Virus record (IMG/VR): IMGVR_UViG_3300020057_000166
Location: 1 to 21,973 of that record
Length of the DNA stretch: 21,973 nucleotides
Reading direction: 5' to 3' (one strand)
Source of the DNA: a virus
Shown in pieces: positions 1,885 through 21,973 of this stretch (position 1 is its first letter; the number at the start of each line of letters is the position of its first letter). The position numbers and the translations under genes were made by a program. The notes beneath the pieces are model-generated. The model saw only the letters and a program-made list of their open reading frames with translations. It did no database searches and was not told where the DNA came from.

Positions 1885-3333
1885 CTACTCCTCCAGCGTG
1901 TCTTCGGTCGGATCCTCTTCCGCCTTCTTACCTGGATTCGGCAGTGTAAAGCCGGGATCCAATTTAATGTCCGCCTTCTCCTTCTCAGAACTGACGCCCT
2001 CACGCGCCCAGCCACCTTCCTGCAGCTTCGTGTAAAACGTCTCGAAGGAAATCGACCCGGCTTGATACGCATGCAGCAGCGCCTCAACATCCTGCGCCGA
2101 CATCTTCACCGAAAAAAAGTCCTTGTTCAGTTCCACTTCACACTCCGCCGACAGCGGATCCTTGACCACGACAAGTCCAGACCACCACGTGTGCCACTTG
2201 AGGCACGTGCTCATCGCCCGCTCAAGGACCTGTCCGATGGTTCGAATCGTGGCGTGCTCGCCGGCGTGTCTCATCGCCACCGTCTGCGCCGCCTCTACAC
2301 CACCGTTGGTATCCGGTTCCAAAAGACGCGCACCGAGAGCCGCCATCATCTTGCGCTTCTCCGACTCCGCCTTCTCCAGAGCACCGAGCCCCTGGCCGGT
2401 GTACTCCAGCATCCCGGCGTGTCCGCCCATGTCGAGAATCCACGCCGAGCCGGAGCCGATCTCCAATGGTCCCTCGGTCTTCAGCCCGCTTACCCACGGA
2501 GTCGGTAGTGCCGTCAGATGCCGTCCGTGTTCAAGGTCCGCCATCGTTCGGTAATGCGAGAGGTTGATGTCCACAAGATCAAGTAACGGCGGCCGATCCA
2601 CATTCACGTTCGTTGAGGACGGGCCGATGCAAACGAACGGGATGAATTCTAACGGAGCACCACGCCGAAGCGGAGTGATGGCTTCGATCGTGATGAACTC
2701 AATCTTGTTGTTCGGGTCCGGCTTCACCACCGTCTGCGTGTATTGCCCATCCTCGATTGAGAGAATCCGATACCGCGTGTCGTCCTTCATCACGAAACGA
2801 TCTTTCGAATCTTCGATGCGGATCGACTCGCGCAGAACGACACGCTTCAGAACTTCATGGCCCTCGACTCTATCGGTCTTCCACGACACGATGTCTTCGG
2901 CGAGGTACTTCACCCAGTACGGGCGGGACACGTGCGGGTTCGACCGAATCTCCGTGGCCATGTCTACAAGGACTCCAACGCGACCAACGAGCAGCGTCTC
3001 GATCGCAAGGTCGATCCCGAACGTGTCGAGCGAGGATCCCGAGAGGCTGATGTCCTTCAGGTGATCCACAATTTCGTCAGGACAACTCACCAATGGGGGC
3101 TTCTGAAACAATGCGCCGGAGAACCCGTTTACGGTTCGGGATGTCCCGTTGAAGAACATTCCGCGCTGCAAATACGCGCTGTACTTCTCGGGCCTCGTGA
3201 TGTGGCTGTCGAGGCGAGGCAGGTATTCAATCCCGGCCGCTTTCACGGCGTCCTCGCCACTGTAGCAATCCCGACATCGCTTCCATCGCGAGTACGCTTC
3301 GCTGTATTCCGGACGCGGTGTGTTTACCGGCAT
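1885..3333 (-). CDS. Portal protein, DUF4055 type
   Basis: 482 aa. The N-terminus RPEYSEAYSRWKRCRDCYSG, followed by KAAGIEYLPRL, YSAYLQRGMFFNGTSRTV and GFSGALFQKPP, is the recognisable opening of DUF4055 phage proteins, which function as portals. The portal is a dodecameric ring at one capsid vertex through which the terminase pumps DNA. Gene order (large terminase, small ORF, portal, head-morphogenesis protein) is the classic head module. The C-terminus is acidic (EEDPTEDTLEE), as is frequent in portals. The start at 3333 overlaps the end of the 54-aa ORF by 10 bp. Confidence 0.88.
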   Translation of the reverse strand: MPVNTPRPEYSEAYSRWKRCRDCYSGEDAVKAAGIEYLPRLDSHITRPEKYSAYLQRGMFFNGTSRTVNGFSGALFQKPPLVSCPDEIVDHLKDISLSGSSLDTFGIDLAIETLLVGRVGVLVDMATEIRSNPHVSRPYWVKYLAEDIVSWKTDRVEGHEVLKRVVLRESIRIEDSKDRFVMKDDTRYRILSIEDGQYTQTVVKPDPNNKIEFITIEAITPLRRGAPLEFIPFVCIGPSSTNVNVDRPPLLDLVDINLSHYRTMADLEHGRHLTALPTPWVSGLKTEGPLEIGSGSAWILDMGGHAGMLEYTGQGLGALEKAESEKRKMMAALGARLLEPDTNGGVEAAQTVAMRHAGEHATIRTIGQVLERAMSTCLKWHTWWSGLVVVKDPLSAECEVELNKDFFSVKMSAQDVEALLHAYQAGSISFETFYTKLQEGGWAREGVSSEKEKADIKLDPGFTLPNPGKKAEEDPTEDTLEE

Positions 3334-3492: not shown

Positions 3493-5034
3493 CTACCCCC
3501 AGCTTACTTCGACTTGCTTCACGACTCTCGTCTTCGCCAGTTCGTTGAACGCACTCGACGAGCCATCGACCTGATCGTCCTGCTTCGCGCTCGGAAACGC
3601 CGTCACTTCGCTGAGATATTGCGCATTCCATACGCCTCGCAGAAGCTTAACATTCCCGGACTGAGCCTGTGACCGATATGGACTCGCGCGCACCGTCTTG
3701 TCTCCGGTGATCTGGACCGGCACGTAGTCAAAGCCCACCATCGCCCTCGCCCGCGCTTCGACCACCGCCTTACCGGATGATCCGCCCTCCTTCTCCTCCG
3801 CCACGGTGCATTCCCTCCCGTCGGCTCGCGCTGTCTCAAGCATGATCTTGTCCACGTCAGCCGGCCCCCACTGCCCGCGAACTACGTCCTCGACGTAGAA
3901 AGTCGGACCGATCTGCGTGATCTTCACCCCGACCGTGTAGTTCCCGCCACCAGCGGTCGCCGCCGTATCCCATCCCCGCACCGACCGGCGCTTTCCCTCC
4001 GGAAGCTTCTCGATGATGCCAAACCACTCCCGCTTGAACAGGCCGCCACCAGCGGGGGACGGACGCTGCTGCAACTGCCCGGCGACGTTGTACTCCTCGC
4101 CGAGTGCAATCTCAAGCTTCTTCACCTTCTCCTCGTCGAATAGGGTCGGCCAGAGAAGCTCGCCCTCAACCGTGCGCTGATCGAGCGGGTCCGGATAGAA
4201 CATTCGGCCGCCGGACTCGACAGGCTTCGCTTCATACCGCATCGGTAGGCGCAAGTGTTCCCAGCCTCCCTTGTCAAGAAGATGTCCAGAGAGATCCTCA
4301 CCGTGAAGGCGCTGCATAATTACGATGATGGCCGCGTTTCGCGTCACGCCGCGAGTCGTGATCGTCGAATCGAACCATGAATTCACAAATTCTCGATCCG
4401 CCTTTGACCGGGCCTGTTCGGCTGTCAGCGCGTCGTCAATGATGATCCGGTCGGGATGGTCTCCGGTCGCCGCTCCGCCGACCGACGTTGCGAACATCCA
4501 TCCGCCCGCCGTCGTCTTGAAAAGCTGCTTCGCGTTCTGATCCCCTGCAAGCCGCACCATCGAATTCTTCTGGTACCACTCGCTCTGGACAATGAGCCGG
4601 ACGCGCAGGTTATCCCGGAGTGAAAGGTGCTCGCCGTACGATGCCTTCAGATACCTCAACTCCGGGTTGCTGAACCACTCCCAACACGGCCACGCCACCG
4701 AGAAGAGAATCGACTTCGTTGTCGCAGGCGGAACGTTCACAAGTAAGCGCGTCACCTCTCCGCGCGTCACCGCTTCGAGCCGCTCGCACTCCACGTCAAG
4801 ATGCCAGTTCCATTTGATCGGCGTGCCGGGCTCGATGAGTGACCAGACCAACCTCGTGAAGTAGGCGAGTGAAGATCGCGCCTTCTCCACTGACTCTTGA
4901 TCGTCGGCGGCTCTGACGTTACGCCGCAGCGAGATCCTCTTCAGCGACTCGATGACCCGGACCTTCTCCCGCTCCGATAGTCCAGAAAGGCGTCCGCTTA
5001 TTGCTGATAGGGTCGCGAGCGCTTCAACGTTCAT
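3493..5034 (-). CDS. terL: Terminase large subunit (packaging ATPase/nuclease)
   Basis: 513 aa, full length for the family. The ATPase domain has a Walker A region VNVPPATTKS (99-108) and a Walker B RIIIDD (196-201). The C-terminal RNase-H-like nuclease starts at RGWDTAAT (353-360, catalytic Asp355) and ends with the typical KQDDQVD (484-490). TerL cuts the replicated concatemer and pumps DNA through the portal. The Walker A is unusual: it lacks the glycine normally before the lysine (ATTKS rather than GTGKS or RHGKS). The gene starts 3 bp after folE, so packaging and base-modification genes share one transcript. Confidence 0.95.
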   Translation of the reverse strand: MNVEALATLSAISGRLSGLSEREKVRVIESLKRISLRRNVRAADDQESVEKARSSLAYFTRLVWSLIEPGTPIKWNWHLDVECERLEAVTRGEVTRLLVNVPPATTKSILFSVAWPCWEWFSNPELRYLKASYGEHLSLRDNLRVRLIVQSEWYQKNSMVRLAGDQNAKQLFKTTAGGWMFATSVGGAATGDHPDRIIIDDALTAEQARSKADREFVNSWFDSTITTRGVTRNAAIIVIMQRLHGEDLSGHLLDKGGWEHLRLPMRYEAKPVESGGRMFYPDPLDQRTVEGELLWPTLFDEEKVKKLEIALGEEYNVAGQLQQRPSPAGGGLFKREWFGIIEKLPEGKRRSVRGWDTAATAGGGNYTVGVKITQIGPTFYVEDVVRGQWGPADVDKIMLETARADGRECTVAEEKEGGSSGKAVVEARARAMVGFDYVPVQITGDKTVRASPYRSQAQSGNVKLLRGVWNAQYLSEVTAFPSAKQDDQVDGSSSAFNELAKTRVVKQVEVSWG

Positions 5035-5037
5035 CGC

Positions 5038-5580
5038 TTATCGGCAGAGGGACAGAAACTCCGCTCGACATTCGGCATTCCTAAACACGCCCTTCAGCGA
5101 GGTGGTCACCATCTCGGCGCGCTGCTTCTTCACCCCCCGGCACGACATGCACAGATGCCGCGCTGTAATCATCACGGCTGCGCCGAGTGGCTCAAGATGC
5201 TTGACGAGTTCGGTCGAGATCGCTTCCGTAAGTCTCTCCTGAATCTGAAGTCTCTTGGCGAAGCAATCCACCAGCCGCGCCAGCTTAGACAAGCCAACCA
5301 CGCGCTGCTTCGGGATATAGGCGACGTGGGCCACCCCGGAAAACGGAAGCAGGTGATGCTCGCATGTCGAGGTGAAGTCAATATTTCTGCACACGATCAT
5401 CTGGTCATAGCCTTCGCCGTGAAAGTCTCGTGCGAGAATCGCTGCCGGATCTTCTGAGTAGCCCGAGCAAGTCTCGCGCATCGCTCGCACCACTCTTGCC
5501 GGAGTGTCAAGAAGGCCTTCGCGGGCTGGATCTTCCCCGATTGCAAGCAAAAGCTGCCGAACGGCTTCCTCGCCAGTCAT
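5038..5580 (-). CDS. folE: GTP cyclohydrolase I
   Basis: 180 aa. FolE opens the GTP ring to 7,8-dihydroneopterin triphosphate, the first step of both folate and 7-deazaguanine synthesis. Zinc ligands are visible as C73 and H76 in TCEHH (72-76) and C144 in HLCMSCRG (142-149). Their 71-residue spacing and the neighbouring active-site histidines (H75, H142) match the family. It starts in an ATGA overlap with the queE stop and ends 3 bp before terL. Since it sits in a queC-D-E operon, its job is very likely supplying the QueD substrate for preQ0 rather than folate. Confidence 0.95.
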   Translation of the reverse strand: MTGEEAVRQLLLAIGEDPAREGLLDTPARVVRAMRETCSGYSEDPAAILARDFHGEGYDQMIVCRNIDFTSTCEHHLLPFSGVAHVAYIPKQRVVGLSKLARLVDCFAKRLQIQERLTEAISTELVKHLEPLGAAVMITARHLCMSCRGVKKQRAEMVTTSLKGVFRNAECRAEFLSLCR

Positions 5581-6176
5581 GTAATCCCCAAGAGCTTATG
5601 TGTCTGTACCGATAGGCTCCATGTTGGATTCTCCAAGCAGAGCCGAATGCAATGTTTGATGTTCTCTCGATCCGGCGCGGCACCCGAAAACTGTGGCGAA
5701 AGGAAATACCTTCGAGCCTTGACCGATGGGCGCGGTACGGCAAGCTGCCCGGAATGCCGTACGTACCGAAGCTCGTCAATCTCTGCGGGCATGTTTTTCT
5801 TCACTACATGTTCGGCGACCTTTGGAGAGCAGGTGATGTAGTCCAGACCGGCCGGCGGTTTGTGATTCCCGTTCGTCTCGATCGCTTGCATGTAGCCTGC
5901 GGCTTTGAAAAACGCCACCGCCTCGGCGGTCAACTGAAGGCTTGGCTCACCACCGGTCCAGACGATCCAACGACATGAAGACGATAAAAGCCGGAGCTTC
6001 TCCAGCAGCGCCTCGGCCGGCAATGCCTTCCCGCTCTCAAACTCGGTGTCACAGAATCCGCAGGTAAGATCGCATCCCGATAGCCGGACAAAAAGCGACG
6101 GATCGCCAGCCCGCCCGCCCTCGCCCTGAAGTGAGTAGAAAATCTCAGATATCTTCAGGTCAACCACGGTATTCAC
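5577..6176 (-). CDS. queE: 7-carboxy-7-deazaguanine synthase (radical SAM)
   Basis: About 199 aa. QueE rearranges 6-carboxy-tetrahydropterin to 7-carboxy-7-deazaguanine using S-adenosylmethionine and a [4Fe-4S] cluster. The N-terminal EIFYSLQGEG motif and the cluster-binding C-x3-C-x2-C (C35, C39, C42 in CDLTCGFCDTEF) are clear, followed by WTGGEPSLQ (73-81), ETNG (100-103) and TCSPK. The frame stays open to a TTG at 6215, which adds 13 non-conserved residues and a larger overlap with queD; I prefer the GTG at 6176 (VNTVVDLKISEIFYS), although no start has a strong ribosome-binding site. Translation is probably coupled to queD. Confidence 0.93.
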   Translation of the reverse strand: MNTVVDLKISEIFYSLQGEGGRAGDPSLFVRLSGCDLTCGFCDTEFESGKALPAEALLEKLRLLSSSCRWIVWTGGEPSLQLTAEAVAFFKAAGYMQAIETNGNHKPPAGLDYITCSPKVAEHVVKKNMPAEIDELRYVRHSGQLAVPRPSVKARRYFLSPQFSGAAPDRENIKHCIRLCLENPTWSLSVQTHKLLGIT

Positions 6177-6525
6177 ATGAACTCGTGCACGTCTCGTGAA
6201 CCCGAACGGCGACAAGCAGTGACAAGCTTGGCTTCAGTTCATCGAACAGCCATCGAGCGATTGCCTCACTTGTCGGGTGCGTCAGCGGCAAGGTGTCGTT
6301 CAAATAGTGGTGATCTAGTTTCTCGTCAAGAATTGGCTTGATAGCACCAGAGACATCTCCGAAGTCCATCACCATTCCGGCCTTCGGCCCCTCGGCCTCG
6401 AGTTCCATTGACTCCAGAATGAGAACCGCCAACCATGAGTGACCATGTAGGCGCGCGCACTTTCCGTCGTGCTGCGGCAGCATGTGGGCCGCTTCGAACT
6501 TCACTTGCTTTTCAAGCCTGAACAT
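6160..6525 (-). CDS. queD: 6-carboxy-5,6,7,8-tetrahydropterin synthase
   Basis: 121 aa from the ATG at 6525, which has an excellent Shine-Dalgarno (GAAGGAG, about 8 nt upstream) and a 14-bp overlap with queC. QueD converts dihydroneopterin triphosphate to 6-carboxy-tetrahydropterin. The zinc histidines are H14 (FEAAH) and H27/H29 (RLHGH), with catalytic C23 (GKCARLHGH). The LDHHYLND motif (70-77) and E111 in HETCTSSCEY complete the family signature. The frame is open to 6570, but those 15 residues are Arg-rich, not conserved and lie inside queC. Confidence 0.94.
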   Translation of the reverse strand: MFRLEKQVKFEAAHMLPQHDGKCARLHGHSWLAVLILESMELEAEGPKAGMVMDFGDVSGAIKPILDEKLDHHYLNDTLPLTHPTSEAIARWLFDELKPSLSLLVAVRVHETCTSSCEYRG

Positions 6526-7189
6526 CCGCGTTCTCCTTCGCATACTTGGTCGGGTCGTCAACTCCGGCAACCTCGAAAGCCTCGCGCCTCTCTACGCATA
6601 TTCCGCATTCTCCGCAATGAACACCCGGCACACCTTCATAACACGAGTACGTCATGCCGAATGGTACCCGAAGCGCCACCCCCATCAAAACGATGTCTGC
6701 CTTCGATAGCTTGACGAACGGGCGAATGATCTTCACGGCATACCAGTCGGCCAAACCTAGTGCTGTATCTAGGGCCGCGACGAACTCCTCGCGGCAGTCT
6801 GGATAGATCGCATGGTCGCCGGCATGGGCGGCGTAAGCGATGGAGTCAGCCTTCCGACTAATTGCCCACGCGCCCGCGACAGCGAGCATGAGCATGTTGC
6901 GATTCGGAACGATGGTCAGCTTCATGCTCTCTTCTGCATAGTGCCCGTGTGGTACCGCAAAATCATCAGTCTGACTGCTCCCGCCAAGCAATGGTCTCAG
7001 CGCCGACAAATCTGCCACCTGATGTTCAACGCCTAGCATCTTGCAAATTAGACTTGCCTGATCCACCTCGTGCCGATGTCTCTGCCCATAGTCAACCGAA
7101 AGCGTGAGGACTTCATGCACCTCCGCTCGCAGTTTGTAAAGCAACACCGTCGAGTCAAGACCGCCGCTGTAAATCAAGACTATTCTCAT
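6512..7189 (-). CDS. queC: 7-cyano-7-deazaguanine (preQ0) synthase
   Basis: 225 aa. QueC uses ATP and ammonia to turn 7-carboxy-7-deazaguanine into preQ0. The PP-loop SGGLDS (8-13), the LSVDYGQRHRHE motif, and the zinc cluster C183, C192, C195, C198 in HCGECGICVERREAF are all present. I chose the ATG at 7189 (MRIVLIYSGG) with AAAGGTG upstream; a GTG at 7198 is also possible. No glutamine-amidotransferase domain is fused, unlike the Gat-QueC of phages that make archaeosine-type DNA. Codons 83-96 are duplicated, inverted, at the end of the neighbouring dpdA. Confidence 0.95.
   Translation of the reverse strand: MRIVLIYSGGLDSTVLLYKLRAEVHEVLTLSVDYGQRHRHEVDQASLICKMLGVEHQVADLSALRPLLGGSSQTDDFAVPHGHYAEESMKLTIVPNRNMLMLAVAGAWAISRKADSIAYAAHAGDHAIYPDCREEFVAALDTALGLADWYAVKIIRPFVKLSKADIVLMGVALRVPFGMTYSCYEGVPGVHCGECGICVERREAFEVAGVDDPTKYAKENADVQA
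6902..6943. repeat. Source arm of a 42-bp inverted repeat (inside queC)
   Basis: This queC segment encodes residues 83-96 (HYAEESMKLTIVPN). Its reverse complement matches 7249-7290 at 40 of 42 positions. Flanking it, the 15 bp at 6855-6869 and the 13 bp at 6941-6953 also recur, in direct orientation, around the second arm. Confidence 0.92.
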
Positions 7190-7236
7190 GTCCTGCACCT
7201 TTTCAAATAGCCTTCACGAAAGAGTCACGCCCGGTT

Positions 7237-7301
7237 CGACTAATTGCCCACTATGCAGAAGAGAGCATGAAGCTGACCGTCGTTCCGAGTGCCCGTGTGG
7301 T
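7237..7301. repeat. Rearranged partial copy of queC at the dpdA 3' end
   Basis: Three adjacent blocks all match queC: 7237-7251 (direct, CGACTAATTGCCCAC, same as 6855-6869), 7249-7290 (inverted, 40/42 to 6902-6943), and 7289-7301 (direct, GTGCCCGTGTGGT, same as 6941-6953). The block carries the stop codon and last codons of dpdA. Direct flanks around an inverted core suggest replication template switching. Confidence 0.88.
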
Positions 7302-8033
7302 GGTTGTCCTGCCCTGCTGGCGACGGCAAGTCATGGGCAACCCATTTAATTCGGTCATCCGCTTTGCCCACTTCGCTCTCGCCCTCCGCTCAAGCCGCAA
7401 GTACCATTCAATCTCCGAACGAAGATCCTGACTTCCGCCGCGCACGCTCATATCTCCGTAGGACTTCCACTGCCCGAACTTACACGGACCAATCTCCCAG
7501 TTTGTCGCATCCACAGAATGCCACGGAACCGCAAGAACTTGCTTCTCGGACCCAAAGCCGAACCCGTGAATCCTGGCGGGCCACACGCGAGCGAAGCACT
7601 GCTCCACCCACTTCATCTTAGCCGCTCCGCGCAAAAGGGCGACACCTCCGAGAGCAATCTTTGGATAGTCCTTCGCGATGTGCTTGAGGTCCATCTCTGG
7701 GCTGCCACGATGAAAGGTAGGAATAGCGGGAACGCCGGCCTGCCACATTCGCTCACAGTTCTTGAGACTAGCCTGCGCGTCGCCTATCACGTCCAGAGAA
7801 AATACTTCTGTGAGCGTCTGGTCCTCGGCAAGCAGCCGCTTCGCCGTTTCGATGTACGCCTCTAGGCTTATCTCAATGCCGCTATAGTATACCGAAAATG
7901 CGCCAGAATCCAGCACCCAATCCCGGTATGCATAACGGTGCTGGTTCTTGAGGAAGCCAGCAAGATATGCGTATGACACGAGCAGCGCCGGTCTCGATTC
8001 TTGCGGAATCTGACTAGCACCATTCTTGCCCAT
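7251..8033 (-). CDS. dpdA: DpdA-like DNA-guanine transglycosylase (TGT family)
   Basis: 260 aa from the ATG at 8033 (MGKNGASQ), with AAGGTG about 13 nt upstream. DpdA swaps guanine in DNA for a 7-deazaguanine. TGT-like signatures are visible: DSGAFS (42-47, compare DSGGFQ), LDVIGD (80-85), KIALGGVAL (125-133, compare GGLAVGE), HGFGFG (156-161) and SVDATNWE (173-180), the last probably holding the nucleophilic Asp175. The frame is open to a TTG at 8174, but that extension crosses a G9 run and two direct repeats read in different frames, so it is probably not coding. The last ~16 residues come from an antisense copy of queC and are not family-like. The adjacent preQ0 genes support a DNA role; a tRNA-modifying TGT is less likely because the protein is short and phage-encoded. 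Confidence 0.88.
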   Translation of the reverse strand: MGKNGASQIPQESRPALLVSYAYLAGFLKNQHRYAYRDWVLDSGAFSVYYSGIEISLEAYIETAKRLLAEDQTLTEVFSLDVIGDAQASLKNCERMWQAGVPAIPTFHRGSPEMDLKHIAKDYPKIALGGVALLRGAAKMKWVEQCFARVWPARIHGFGFGSEKQVLAVPWHSVDATNWEIGPCKFGQWKSYGDMSVRGGSQDLRSEIEWYLRLERRARAKWAKRMTELNGLPMTCRRQQGRTTTTRALGTTVSFMLSSA

Positions 8034-8177
8034 CAACACATTATCACCTTGCGCCCCTGGTGCGTGCGCCAACCGTACCGAGAGTTCCTTCAAGGTTGAG
8101 TCACCAGAATTCCTGTCACGTGCAAACCCAACCGTACCGAGACTGCCACGTTGCCCCCCCCCTCTGGATGACAACCA
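8034..8177 (-). promoter_or_regulatory. Probable leader/regulatory region of dpdA
   Basis: About 144 bp between the ParB-like gene and the chosen dpdA start. It contains a G9 homopolymer (8154-8162) and two exact 15-bp direct repeats TCTCGGTACGGTTGG on the minus strand (8128-8142 and 8069-8083), 59 bp apart. Repeats of this kind can be operator or activator sites. A GATAAT hexamer lies just before the start, but no -35 box is correctly spaced, so no promoter is claimed. Confidence 0.4.
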
Positions 8178-8834
8178 TCATCCCGCAAGAAAATCGGCGC
8201 AGATTAGCTCGACTATTCTTCCATCGCTCGCCTCTTCTCCAGCGTCGGGTGTTGCCTTCTCTTTCGCTCTATCGAAGACCGCGCGCTGTTCCTTCGTCAG
8301 CTTGATTGGATCACCCATCAGAACATGCTCATCGAACGCCTCGACCAACGCCGGAGCCCACTCGGCCTTCAGCAGATTCTCAAGCTCGTGGTCGTCGTAC
8401 CCGGTCAGGGTCTTGTCCATGTCTTCGGCCATCTCTTTGAGCAGCACTCCAAGAACTTGATAATCCGTCTCCGCAAGCTCCGCGATCCGGTTGTCCGCGA
8501 CAAGATGAGCCCACTCATCCGCCTCATTCGCGAACTCCTGAACGTCAACCGGCACGCGCTCCTCGCCAAGCGATATCGCCGCCGAGAGTCGAGCGTGTCC
8601 AGCCACTACGAAACCGGACCGCGCGCTCACCACTACCGGCGACCGCCAGCCCTGATGCTTCACGATCTTGGCAAGTAGCTCGATCTGCTTCTCTGGGTGC
8701 TGGTTCGGATTCCTCGGGTGAGGAACGAGAGCCGTCACCTCGCGCATCTCTTTATACGAACATCGGACCGCAACACCGGGCTTCTTCTTCACCACCGCCT
8801 TCTGTTTCTTGGCCGGTCGTTTCTTGACGCTCAT
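8178..8834 (-). CDS. ParB/Srx-fold protein
   Basis: 218 aa. After a Lys-rich N-terminus (1-20), a ParB N-terminal-like domain is visible: VPHPRNPNQHPEKQIELLAK (about 37-56), HQGWRSPVVVSARSGFVVAGHARLSAA (60-86) with the GHxR nucleotide-binding motif at 79-82, then VPVDVQEF. In phages this domain is often found alone, or fused to DNA methyltransferases, and may bind or cleave DNA or hydrolyse CTP. No methyltransferase or HTH domain follows; the C-terminus is helical. It is coupled (ATGA) to the small-terminase-like gene and stands next to dpdA, so a role in DNA modification or packaging is possible but unproven. Confidence 0.82.
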   Translation of the reverse strand: MSVKKRPAKKQKAVVKKKPGVAVRCSYKEMREVTALVPHPRNPNQHPEKQIELLAKIVKHQGWRSPVVVSARSGFVVAGHARLSAAISLGEERVPVDVQEFANEADEWAHLVADNRIAELAETDYQVLGVLLKEMAEDMDKTLTGYDDHELENLLKAEWAPALVEAFDEHVLMGDPIKLTKEQRAVFDRAKEKATPDAGEEASDGRIVELICADFLAG

Positions 8835-9310
8835 TCCGCCCCCGCACTCTCACCGTCTTCAACCAAGGACTGGATGTTCAGATCCGGGAAGATCGCCGAC
8901 AAAGCCTGCCGCGCCTCCTCGTCCGTTTCGATCTTAACTGACACCCGGTCATTCTGCCCAAGGATCGTCTTGCCCGTCCACACCAGCATCGTGCCCTGAG
9001 CTGCGTGGCCGTCCGTCAGCGCCACCACTATCTGCTTCCGGCGCAGGCTGATATTCAGATCCGCCCGTCCACCCTCTATGGCTTCTTGCACCCCAAACTG
9101 ATCCTTGATCCGATGCGCGAGTGTGTGATCCTCCATCCCCATCGCCCGCGCCATTTCCCATCGTCTTGCTCCCACATTCGCCATCCTTCGAAGCTCGGCG
9201 ATCTGCTCGACCGTGAGCATCTTCCTGGGTCGCCCGTTGATCGGGCCAGGTCCGTATCGTCTCTTGTTACCTTTGGCCTTGTCTGAGCCGGTAACTTTTC
9301 CCTTATTCAT
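8831..9310 (-). CDS. HTH DNA-binding protein, putative terminase small subunit
   Basis: 159 aa. A basic N-terminus (1-30) precedes a helix-turn-helix-like region, LTVEQIAELRRMANVGARRWEMARAMGM (about 32-59). The next part, RRKQIVVALTDGHAAQGTMLVWTGKTILGQND (90-121), resembles the conserved helical core of many phage small-terminase-like proteins (MLIW.GK..LGQ.D). Small terminases recognise the packaging site and hand DNA to TerL. TerL lies in the same operon but is separated by the ParB-like gene and the five-gene deazaguanine cassette, which looks inserted into the packaging module. Assignment is by motif resemblance only. Confidence 0.65.
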   Translation of the reverse strand: MNKGKVTGSDKAKGNKRRYGPGPINGRPRKMLTVEQIAELRRMANVGARRWEMARAMGMEDHTLAHRIKDQFGVQEAIEGGRADLNISLRRKQIVVALTDGHAAQGTMLVWTGKTILGQNDRVSVKIETDEEARQALSAIFPDLNIQSLVEDGESAGAE

Positions 9311-14279: not shown

Positions 14280-14887
14280 CGGACAGACGCCTCGAAAATC
14301 GCATTGAATTGCTCGATGCGATCCGCCAACGGAATCGCCAGCACCGCCGTCACAATGCACCGATCCCCCGCGCGGGTAGACGCCCGGAGGGTGGGGGTGT
14401 AGTTCTGCGCGGTATCCGTGAGCGTGCAGCTCGATGGTGCCCCCATCACTACCCGCGACGTTTCGAGGTACCAGATTGGGAACCTGTTGCGATTGCACGA
14501 GTCGGGAATCTGAACCTCACCGGAGCGAGGGGTCGCATCAAGTCTGCGAGATTCGCCCGGGGCGATGTCCCGGTCATCCGCGGCCGCGGAGTGGAAGCCA
14601 AGCGTCATGCGCGTTGGGAGACATGGGTCAGCGGCCTCAGGGGTCGGACTCACAGTCGGTCGGACAGACGGCGATGGAGTGGCGATCGCGGAGGGACCGC
14701 TTACGGTTGATGTTGCGCACGTGGAGCCCCCGGTGCAGATGAGGTTCCCCAGGTCGCACGCGGCCGCCAGGAGGAAAACCACCGCGGCAAGCAGGGCGGT
14801 AGCAGCGGTGGGAGTCGAACCCACTGATTGCTGGTTATGAGCCAGCCGACGTAACCGTTCGTCTCCGCTGCGTCGTTCCGGGTTCAC
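14276..14887 (-). CDS. Lipoprotein, 203 aa, whose start overlaps a tRNA gene
   Basis: A GTG at 14887 has a very good Shine-Dalgarno (GGAGGT) and a GTGA overlap with the upstream lipoprotein gene. From it, the first ~30 residues (NPERRSGDERLRRLAHNQQS...) are tRNA sequence read as protein. Then follow a hydrophobic segment and lipobox, ATALLAAVVFLLAAAC (Cys near residue 44), a Thr/Ser/Pro-rich linker and a domain with several cysteines. The mature protein would be an envelope lipoprotein of about 160 residues. Whether translation truly starts at 14887 or at an internal GTG after the tRNA (short of a normal signal peptide) is unclear. Function unknown; it is in the lysis cluster. Confidence 0.55.
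   Translation of the reverse strand: MNPERRSGDERLRRLAHNQQSVGSTPTAATALLAAVVFLLAAACDLGNLICTGGSTCATSTVSGPSAIATPSPSVRPTVSPTPEAADPCLPTRMTLGFHSAAADDRDIAPGESRRLDATPRSGEVQIPDSCNRNRFPIWYLETSRVVMGAPSSCTLTDTAQNYTPTLRASTRAGDRCIVTAVLAIPLADRIEQFNAIFEASVR
14800..14872 (-). tRNA. tRNA with CAU anticodon (Met, or Ile2)
   Basis: A cloverleaf can be folded by hand. The acceptor stem is CGCAGCG/CGCTGCT (six pairs and one terminal mismatch). The D-stem is GACG/CGTC with loop AACGGTTA. The anticodon stem is GCTGG/CCAGC with loop CTCATAA, anticodon CAT. A 5-nt variable loop follows, and the T arm is GTGGG-TTCGACT-CCCAC. The discriminator base is A; CCA is not encoded. Position 8 is G rather than T, a deviation. 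The gene lies inside the 5' part of a lipoprotein ORF on the same strand. CAU could mean elongator Met, or Ile if the C is modified to lysidine; it lacks the clear features of an initiator tRNA. Confidence 0.85.
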
Positions 14888-21689: not shown

Positions 21690-21973
21690 CCGTGCCTGCC
21701 TTGCCTTGTCGTGCCTTGCCTAACCGCGCCCCGCCCCGCCTGCCTTGCCTTGTCGTGCCAAGCCGTGCCTAGCCGCGCCTGCCTTGCCTTGCCCTGCCTC
21801 GCCGGGCCATGCCTGGCCTCGCCTGCCTCGTCTTGCCAGGCCATGCCGCGCCTCGCCTGGCCTCGCCTGCCTCGTCTTGCCAGGCCATGCCTTGCCTTTC
21901 CGTGCCTGCCTTGCCTTGCCCGGCCAAGCCGCGCCCCGCCTGGCCCCGCCTGCCTCGTCTTGCCAGGCCATGC
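21690..21973. repeat. Degenerate GCCNN pentanucleotide repeat tract (no gene)
   Basis: About 280 bp, running off the right edge, split almost entirely into GCCNN units where the two variable bases differ from unit to unit, with occasional GCCT four-base units. A larger unit (GCCTGCCTCGTCTTGCCAGG, then CCATGCC) recurs three times. A minus-strand frame is open across it, but the four-base units would shift the frame and the product would be low-complexity, so it is not annotated as coding. No gene lies between 21650 and 21973. Confidence 0.85.

Follow-up and report, generated by a model that had tools for sequence, protein, structure and literature searches.

In the cultured Mycobacterium phages Blocker23 (genus Rosebushvirus) and Saguaro (Saguarovirus), a gene for a ParB-like protein is followed by dpdA, queC, queD, queE, folE and the terminase gene, in this order. 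Blocker23 was used as the representative of Rosebushvirus for gene order; phage Sonali has the same six genes, also in the same order. In CAjan and Rosebush, which share the same minimal gene set, 7-cyano-7-deazaguanine in DNA (dPreQ0) was measured by liquid chromatography-mass spectrometry (LC-MS) at 32% and 28% of guanine, respectively (PMC6884629). The identical gene order was found in IMG/VR record IMGVR_UViG_3300020057_000166, a phage fragment that was analyzed in its entirety (21,973 bases; hereafter the window). In a sister contig (L002; loci and contigs are referred to by such numbers), the place of this cassette is taken by a C5-cytosine methyltransferase gene. The best explanation, to which we assign a joint probability of about 0.78, is that the cassette is a six-gene phage DNA-modification set of the Rosebushvirus type, situated in an exchangeable slot and including the ParB-like protein. 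The arrangement of the cassette is already known; what adds interest is the exchange, together with the pairing of ParB with the modifying enzyme.

The window differs from Rosebushvirus and Saguarovirus in that its DpdA belongs to another clade and is shorter. CAjan and 9g (Queuovirinae) have the same enzymes as the window, and CAjan, with dPreQ0 in its DNA, is without an amidotransferase. However, the CAjan and 9g cassettes are located next to DNA polymerase genes in stretches where no ParB is annotated, and 9g-type phages carry Gat-QueC. Bacterial dpd systems likewise combine a DpdA resembling tRNA-guanine transglycosylase (TGT) with a ParB-like ATPase, DpdB (PMC12839542). In contrast to these systems, neither DpdC nor restriction genes were observed in the window, which has the form of a self-protecting phage module. 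The same ParB core is also joined to a DNA-modifying enzyme in phage ParB-methyltransferase fusions (phrog_498; PMC12704722), whereas the window ParB is a separate protein and the enzyme is DpdA, or the C5 methyltransferase in L002. Exchange of flexible modules between near-identical phages was described for cryoconite by Bellas et al., with DNA methyltransferases as the most frequent variable genes (PMC7468147). The cryoconite phages swap homologous variants, while the window and L002 swap two unrelated chemistries.

The five pathway genes lie contiguously on the minus strand and were recognized by family profiles. dpdA (7251-8174, an open frame from TTG 8174) encodes a DNA-guanine transglycosylase matching the PHROG queuine transglycosylase family (E = 2e-28), with the motifs LDSGAF, SLDVI, IHGFG and SVDATNW intact. 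The queC product (6512-7198), a 7-cyano-7-deazaguanine synthase without an amidotransferase domain, matches PF06508 (E = 4e-60), scores over the cut-off of NCBIfam TIGR00364 and retains the PP-loop (SGGLDS) and zinc (CGECGIC) motifs. For queD (6160-6570; likely start ATG at ~6525), a 6-carboxytetrahydropterin synthase, the match to the PTPS family (E = 1e-33) was accompanied by a score over the TIGR03367 cut-off and an intact CARLHGH motif. queE (5577-6215; start uncertain) encodes a radical SAM 7-carboxy-7-deazaguanine synthase with the CX3CX2C motif as CDLTCGFC; it matches TIGR04508 (E = 6e-38, under its cut-off) and PHROG QueE (E = 2e-29). folE (5038-5580), for GTP cyclohydrolase I, matches PF01227 (E = 1e-70), exceeds the TIGR00063 cut-off and has intact CEHH and HLCMSCRG motifs. 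As read from the sequence, these motifs and the invariant DpdA residues described below go far beyond what chance would produce. The original prediction of five contiguous genes with intact catalytic motifs was confirmed by both the family matches and the motif check. Its view of a preQ0 pathway with a DpdA-type insertase was supported, also by the predicted DpdA fold. Its description of the genes as overlapping holds for queC/queD, queD/queE and queE/folE; dpdA and queC are 52 nt apart.

L002 matches the window at ~99% identity on either side of the slot (window 12067-8462 and 5036-340), whereas the sequence in between is unrelated. The intervening segment (5037-8461, minus strand) is replaced in L002 by a different parB 3' end and a gene for a C5-cytosine methyltransferase (L002:3679-5082; PF00145, E = 6e-56). 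The left break falls directly after the ADNRIAELAE motif of the conserved ParB core, and the right break at the start codon of terL, the large terminase gene that forms the right-hand border of the slot (3493-5034, minus strand; phrog_38, E = 1e-78; PF17289; 99% identity to L002 terL). Divergence in the flanks amounts to 14 of 514 codons in terL and 4 of 483 in the portal gene. On the left flank, 10 of the 17 differences are clustered within ~90 bases (L002 3120-3207) at the 3' end of the gene that precedes parB, which suggests an older recombination patch. The ParB tail was exchanged along with the enzyme. We observe here a natural exchange in which a guanine-replacement pathway and a cytosine methyltransferase occupy the same slot. 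It appears that these phages trade one way of disguising their DNA for a different one, and we infer that recombination within the conserved parB core and at terL swaps the whole chemistry. Scans with TerS and portal returned only L002 and one distant locus, and a TerL scan of genome contigs gave one distant match (32%) and no host clue.

The ParB-like gene (8178-8834, minus strand) encodes a DpdB-like protein of 218 amino acids with a ParB/Srx fold, consisting of a core and a C-terminal LTKEQR...ICADFLAG tail; its match to PF02195 (E = 2e-4) is below the cut-off. The predicted fold matches Noc, ParB and sulfiredoxin-type structures, and a GHAR motif is present, so that the protein combines the ParB/Srx fold with a nucleotide-binding motif, as DpdB does. 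A similar proposal was made for CRB2, whose own ParB-like gene was suggested to be a possible DpdB homologue (PMC6392294). To collect related loci, QueC was chosen as the anchor after a DpdA query against viral contigs gave no close relatives. Among 80 QueC-anchored viral loci, 43 contained dpdA, of which three were dropped as their upstream side was cut off, leaving 40 assessable loci; 37 were without dpdA. A ParB-like gene was present within ~1.2 kb of dpdA in 25 of the 40 loci, compared to 1 of 37 loci lacking dpdA (Fisher p ~1e-8, computed with 36); one of the 25 is redundant, L008 repeating L007. Given this linkage, which DpdB shares in being encoded with DpdA, the ParB-like gene can be assigned to the cassette. 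The original prediction was correct about its adjacency but had treated it as a neighboring gene. The tree of DpdA proteins placed the window sequence in a clade of 14 rows (support 99/100), 13 of which have ParB and one of which is cut off before it; the clade of CAjan and 9g is without ParB.

The association of ParB with modifying enzymes extends beyond DpdA. A first ParB alignment was too divergent for scanning; a database search with the window ParB returned many ParB-methyltransferase fusions. When loci were anchored on ParB, 56 of 80 showed fusion to an N6/N4-methyltransferase motif. Stand-alone ParBs adjoined C5 methyltransferases, Mom, TET-associated glycosyltransferases and a radical SAM protein, commonly with terminase genes next. 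Two loci (L094 94-1537 and L157 1036-2363) have a ParB-like gene directly before a Mom-family modification gene, with tails resembling the DpdA-linked type.

We compared the ParB tails between enzyme classes. The small domain at the end of the window ParB is also found in the DpdA-linked ParBs of L031, L004, L050 and L041, while the L002 protein terminates with a zinc ribbon, ECPKCGYKF. Across the first two sets, a zinc ribbon was present in 9/9 ParBs beside a C5 methyltransferase (including that of L002, which the automatic pattern missed and which was read by eye), 1/26 beside DpdA and 1/~20 others. An independent set was gathered with the L002 methyltransferase alone, yielding 31 loci with enough upstream sequence. 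ParB was located directly upstream on the same strand in 30 of these, and 29 of the 30 had a CxxC tail, typically ETEHxCPKCGYxWSG. The tail counts include related sequences and are uncorrected for kinship. Because the independent set reproduces the zinc-ribbon tails, the pairing of tail and enzyme is general, and the tail of ParB, presumably a partner protein, would be matched to the enzyme. A broader proposal, at slightly less than even odds, is that ParB partners generally with the DNA-modifying enzymes of phages, with a constant core and an enzyme-class-specific tail (zinc ribbon for C5 methyltransferase, small helical for DpdA), and that recombination inside parB switches the chemistry in one step while keeping tail and enzyme matched. 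No description of the tail-enzyme pairing or of the chemistry swap was found in the literature searched.

The assignment of DpdA rests on its conserved residues and predicted fold. Across 38 aligned DpdA proteins, the Asp of LDSGA, the Asp of SLDVI, the His of IHGFG and the Asp of SVDATNW were invariant in all covering rows (37-38 rows), in agreement with the catalytic aspartates on which the original prediction had made the assignment depend. A conserved histidine at position 196 is absent from DpdA2 (PMC6884629). The IHGFG histidine, present in 38/38 rows and equated with position 196 by motif only, distinguishes the window protein from DpdA2. An alignment-built structural model (mean pLDDT, a per-residue confidence score, of 79) had tRNA-guanine transglycosylases as its best structural matches. 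Comparison with the DNA preQ0 insertase DpdA (7ui4) gave Z 14.1 and 18% identity, the highest identity among the structures listed. A DpdA profile weakly matched 7ui4 among solved structures, with LDSGAF and SVDATNW aligned; phmmer with the single DpdA sequence found no match in the same structures, and a plain Foldseek search of the model ranked other TIM barrels first. The protein has the TGT barrel with catalytic aspartates expected of 9g-type DpdA.

The original prediction placed the start of dpdA at ATG 8033, which had to be revised: the resulting product is without the first barrel strand, represented by SVRLAHAPG (from 8081) in alignment with relatives, and the open frame extends to TTG 8174. 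The true start is uncertain, yet upstream of 8081. Several features obscure its exact position, namely an ATGA overlapping the stop of parB, nine consecutive G, and a 20-nt direct repeat coding the VRLA strand motif, the two copies of which (8069-8088 and 8128-8147, minus strand) are mutually out of frame in the window. Two or three tandem APTVRLAxxxG-like copies occur near the N-terminus of DpdA in L009, L031, L034, L041, L007 and L004, with silently varying codons; the copies are in frame in L031, L034 and L041, and the N-terminal copies of L007 are out of frame with the barrel. L004 and L007 carry the motif at the C-terminus as well, and L004 dpdA (630-1486) is divided between two frames inside the barrel, which may mean that the gene is broken or frameshifted, or that the sequence contains an error. 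At the 3' end of the window gene, a 40-nt inverted repeat (98%; 6904-6943 and 7249-7288) links dpdA to the interior of queC and is flanked by direct repeats (6855-6869/7237-7251 and 6940-6953/7288-7301). We considered an invertible switch and rejected it; the dpdA tail reads as a small fragment of queC that was copied and rearranged, as would be left by a template switch.

Next, we asked which base the cassette would produce. Family searches for QueF, ArcS and Gat-QueC found no match among the window proteins scanned, the window being a genome fragment; the QueF family hit is a cross-match of the FolE protein (32 bits versus a cut-off of 87). The original prediction was right that the window is without QueF and Gat-QueC. 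Since this gene content, lacking QueF and a Gat domain, matches the CAjan/Rosebush set, dPreQ0 is the likely product and our best guess, with the reservation that modifying genes could lie in the rest of the genome. The earlier proposal of dPreQ0 is upheld to this extent, but not in its assumption that such genes are absent elsewhere in the phage. Conversion to dPreQ1, dG+ or dADG by a further enzyme encoded in the missing genome part is rather unlikely, despite the fragmentary record and despite the low levels of dADG seen in several phages with no obvious enzyme for it (PMC6884629). Among 14 relatives, QueF scored over the cut-off in L020 only and near it in L038. However, the L038 gene sits between dpdA and queC, inside the cassette, whereas the window cassette is complete without it, and the 43-49 kb contigs L003, L004, L005 and L009 show no QueF match except the FolE cross-match. 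It is highly improbable that the cassette supplies queuosine to host tRNA and so aids translation rather than modifying DNA. FolE, QueD, QueE and QueC are indeed bacterial queuosine genes, and some phages have them without DpdA (PMC6884629), but the transglycosylase has the DpdA-type histidine, its highest-identity structure listed is a DNA enzyme, the cassette follows the Rosebushvirus order, and a DNA methyltransferase fills the same slot in L002.

Two further alternatives concern the locus as a whole. The exchange is known from a single pair of metagenomic contigs, the only two with this backbone, and the left break is placed within the conserved part of parB, a stretch at which two genomes might be fused during assembly. 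A chimera of the que cassette with the flanks of another phage would nevertheless require two independent false joins, one exactly at the terL start codon. Both modules are coherent, the window ParB tail being of the DpdA type and the L002 tail of the methyltransferase type, and the whole gene order matches cultured phages; we consider a chimera quite improbable. It is unlikely, if somewhat less so, that ParB has a separate role in partition or packaging and is no more than a neighbor of the modification genes. The ParB_N fold and a position near terminase genes would make hitchhiking easy, and a direct role of ParB in modification is putative. In contrast, ParB follows DpdA and C5-methyltransferase genes and not the type of terminase, it is fused to N6/N4 methyltransferases in the majority of ParB-anchored loci, and its tail type follows the enzyme. 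Other points weigh against our interpretation of the cassette. In E. coli, the DpdA of 9g is active with no phage ParB present (PMC6884629), and DpdB, which acts with DpdA in bacterial dpd systems, is dispensable in some clusters (PMC12839542), and therefore ParB need not be essential. The comparison with bacterial DpdB covered fold, motif and gene linkage. The uncertain start of dpdA and the rearranged queC piece in its tail also count against the interpretation, as does the incompleteness of the genome, the missing part of which could encode a DpdC-like enzyme, QueF or an amidotransferase. For this phage, the base chemistry is predicted from gene content.

The minus-strand gene order of the region is the gene at 8831-9310, the ParB-like gene, dpdA, queC, queD, queE, folE, terL and the DUF4055 portal gene (1885-3333). 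The original prediction located the cassette between small-terminase/ParB genes and terL; the position stands, but the name small terminase is unproven for the gene at 8831-9310 (minus strand), which has weak matches to DNA-binding families alone (E = 7e-4). From this adjacency it had further proposed modification shortly before or during packaging. The cassette does adjoin terminase genes, yet the inference is weak. Terminases beside dpdA cassettes belong to unrelated families, namely phrog_38 (window, L031), phrog_9 (L004, L034, L041) and phrog_675/15 (L069), and therefore the neighborhood does not point to one packaging machine. C5 methyltransferases (as in the L002 slot), Mom and glycosyltransferases beside ParB fill similar places near the terminase. 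The place beside the terminase is a general modification slot, and late expression together with the terminase is plausible. A promoter scan of the window gave no more matches than chance, and terminator-like matches were mostly within genes. A tRNA-Met (CAT) was predicted at 14801-14871 (minus strand), overlapping an open frame. The window ends (21720-21973 and 1-60) consist of low-complexity, repeat-rich GC sequence, which may have caused the assembly to stop.

Based on these results, we propose that FolE, QueD, QueE and QueC would make preQ0 from GTP and that DpdA would exchange guanine for preQ0 in the finished phage DNA. The ParB-like protein would probably assist through nucleotide binding or DNA handling, via its enzyme-matched tail. 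Guanine modification should render the DNA resistant to many restriction enzymes of the host. At the same time, it would make the phage a target for modification-dependent restriction. One example is GrwAB, which targets 7-deazaguanine phages and whose escapers have altered dpdA (PMC12137116). A slot that allows the complete chemistry to be replaced in one recombination would answer both ordinary and modification-dependent restriction, and may have been selected for this reason.

In conclusion, a known pathway is now also represented in an uncultured phage, within a DpdA clade that has no cultured member in the tree. Two phages that are 99% identical around the slot differ in their modification genes, and the switch cuts at the ParB domain boundary. 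The exchange makes the unclear role of ParB-like proteins beside phage modification genes testable: does the tail serve to dock or direct the enzyme, in the manner of an adaptor? Selection by hosts whose defenses are aimed at modified DNA is consistent with the exchange as well, as seen with GrwAB and the dpdA-mutant escapers (PMC12137116). If the broader proposal on ParB is true, one-step switching would allow these phages to escape from both ordinary and modification-dependent restriction, including GrwAB.

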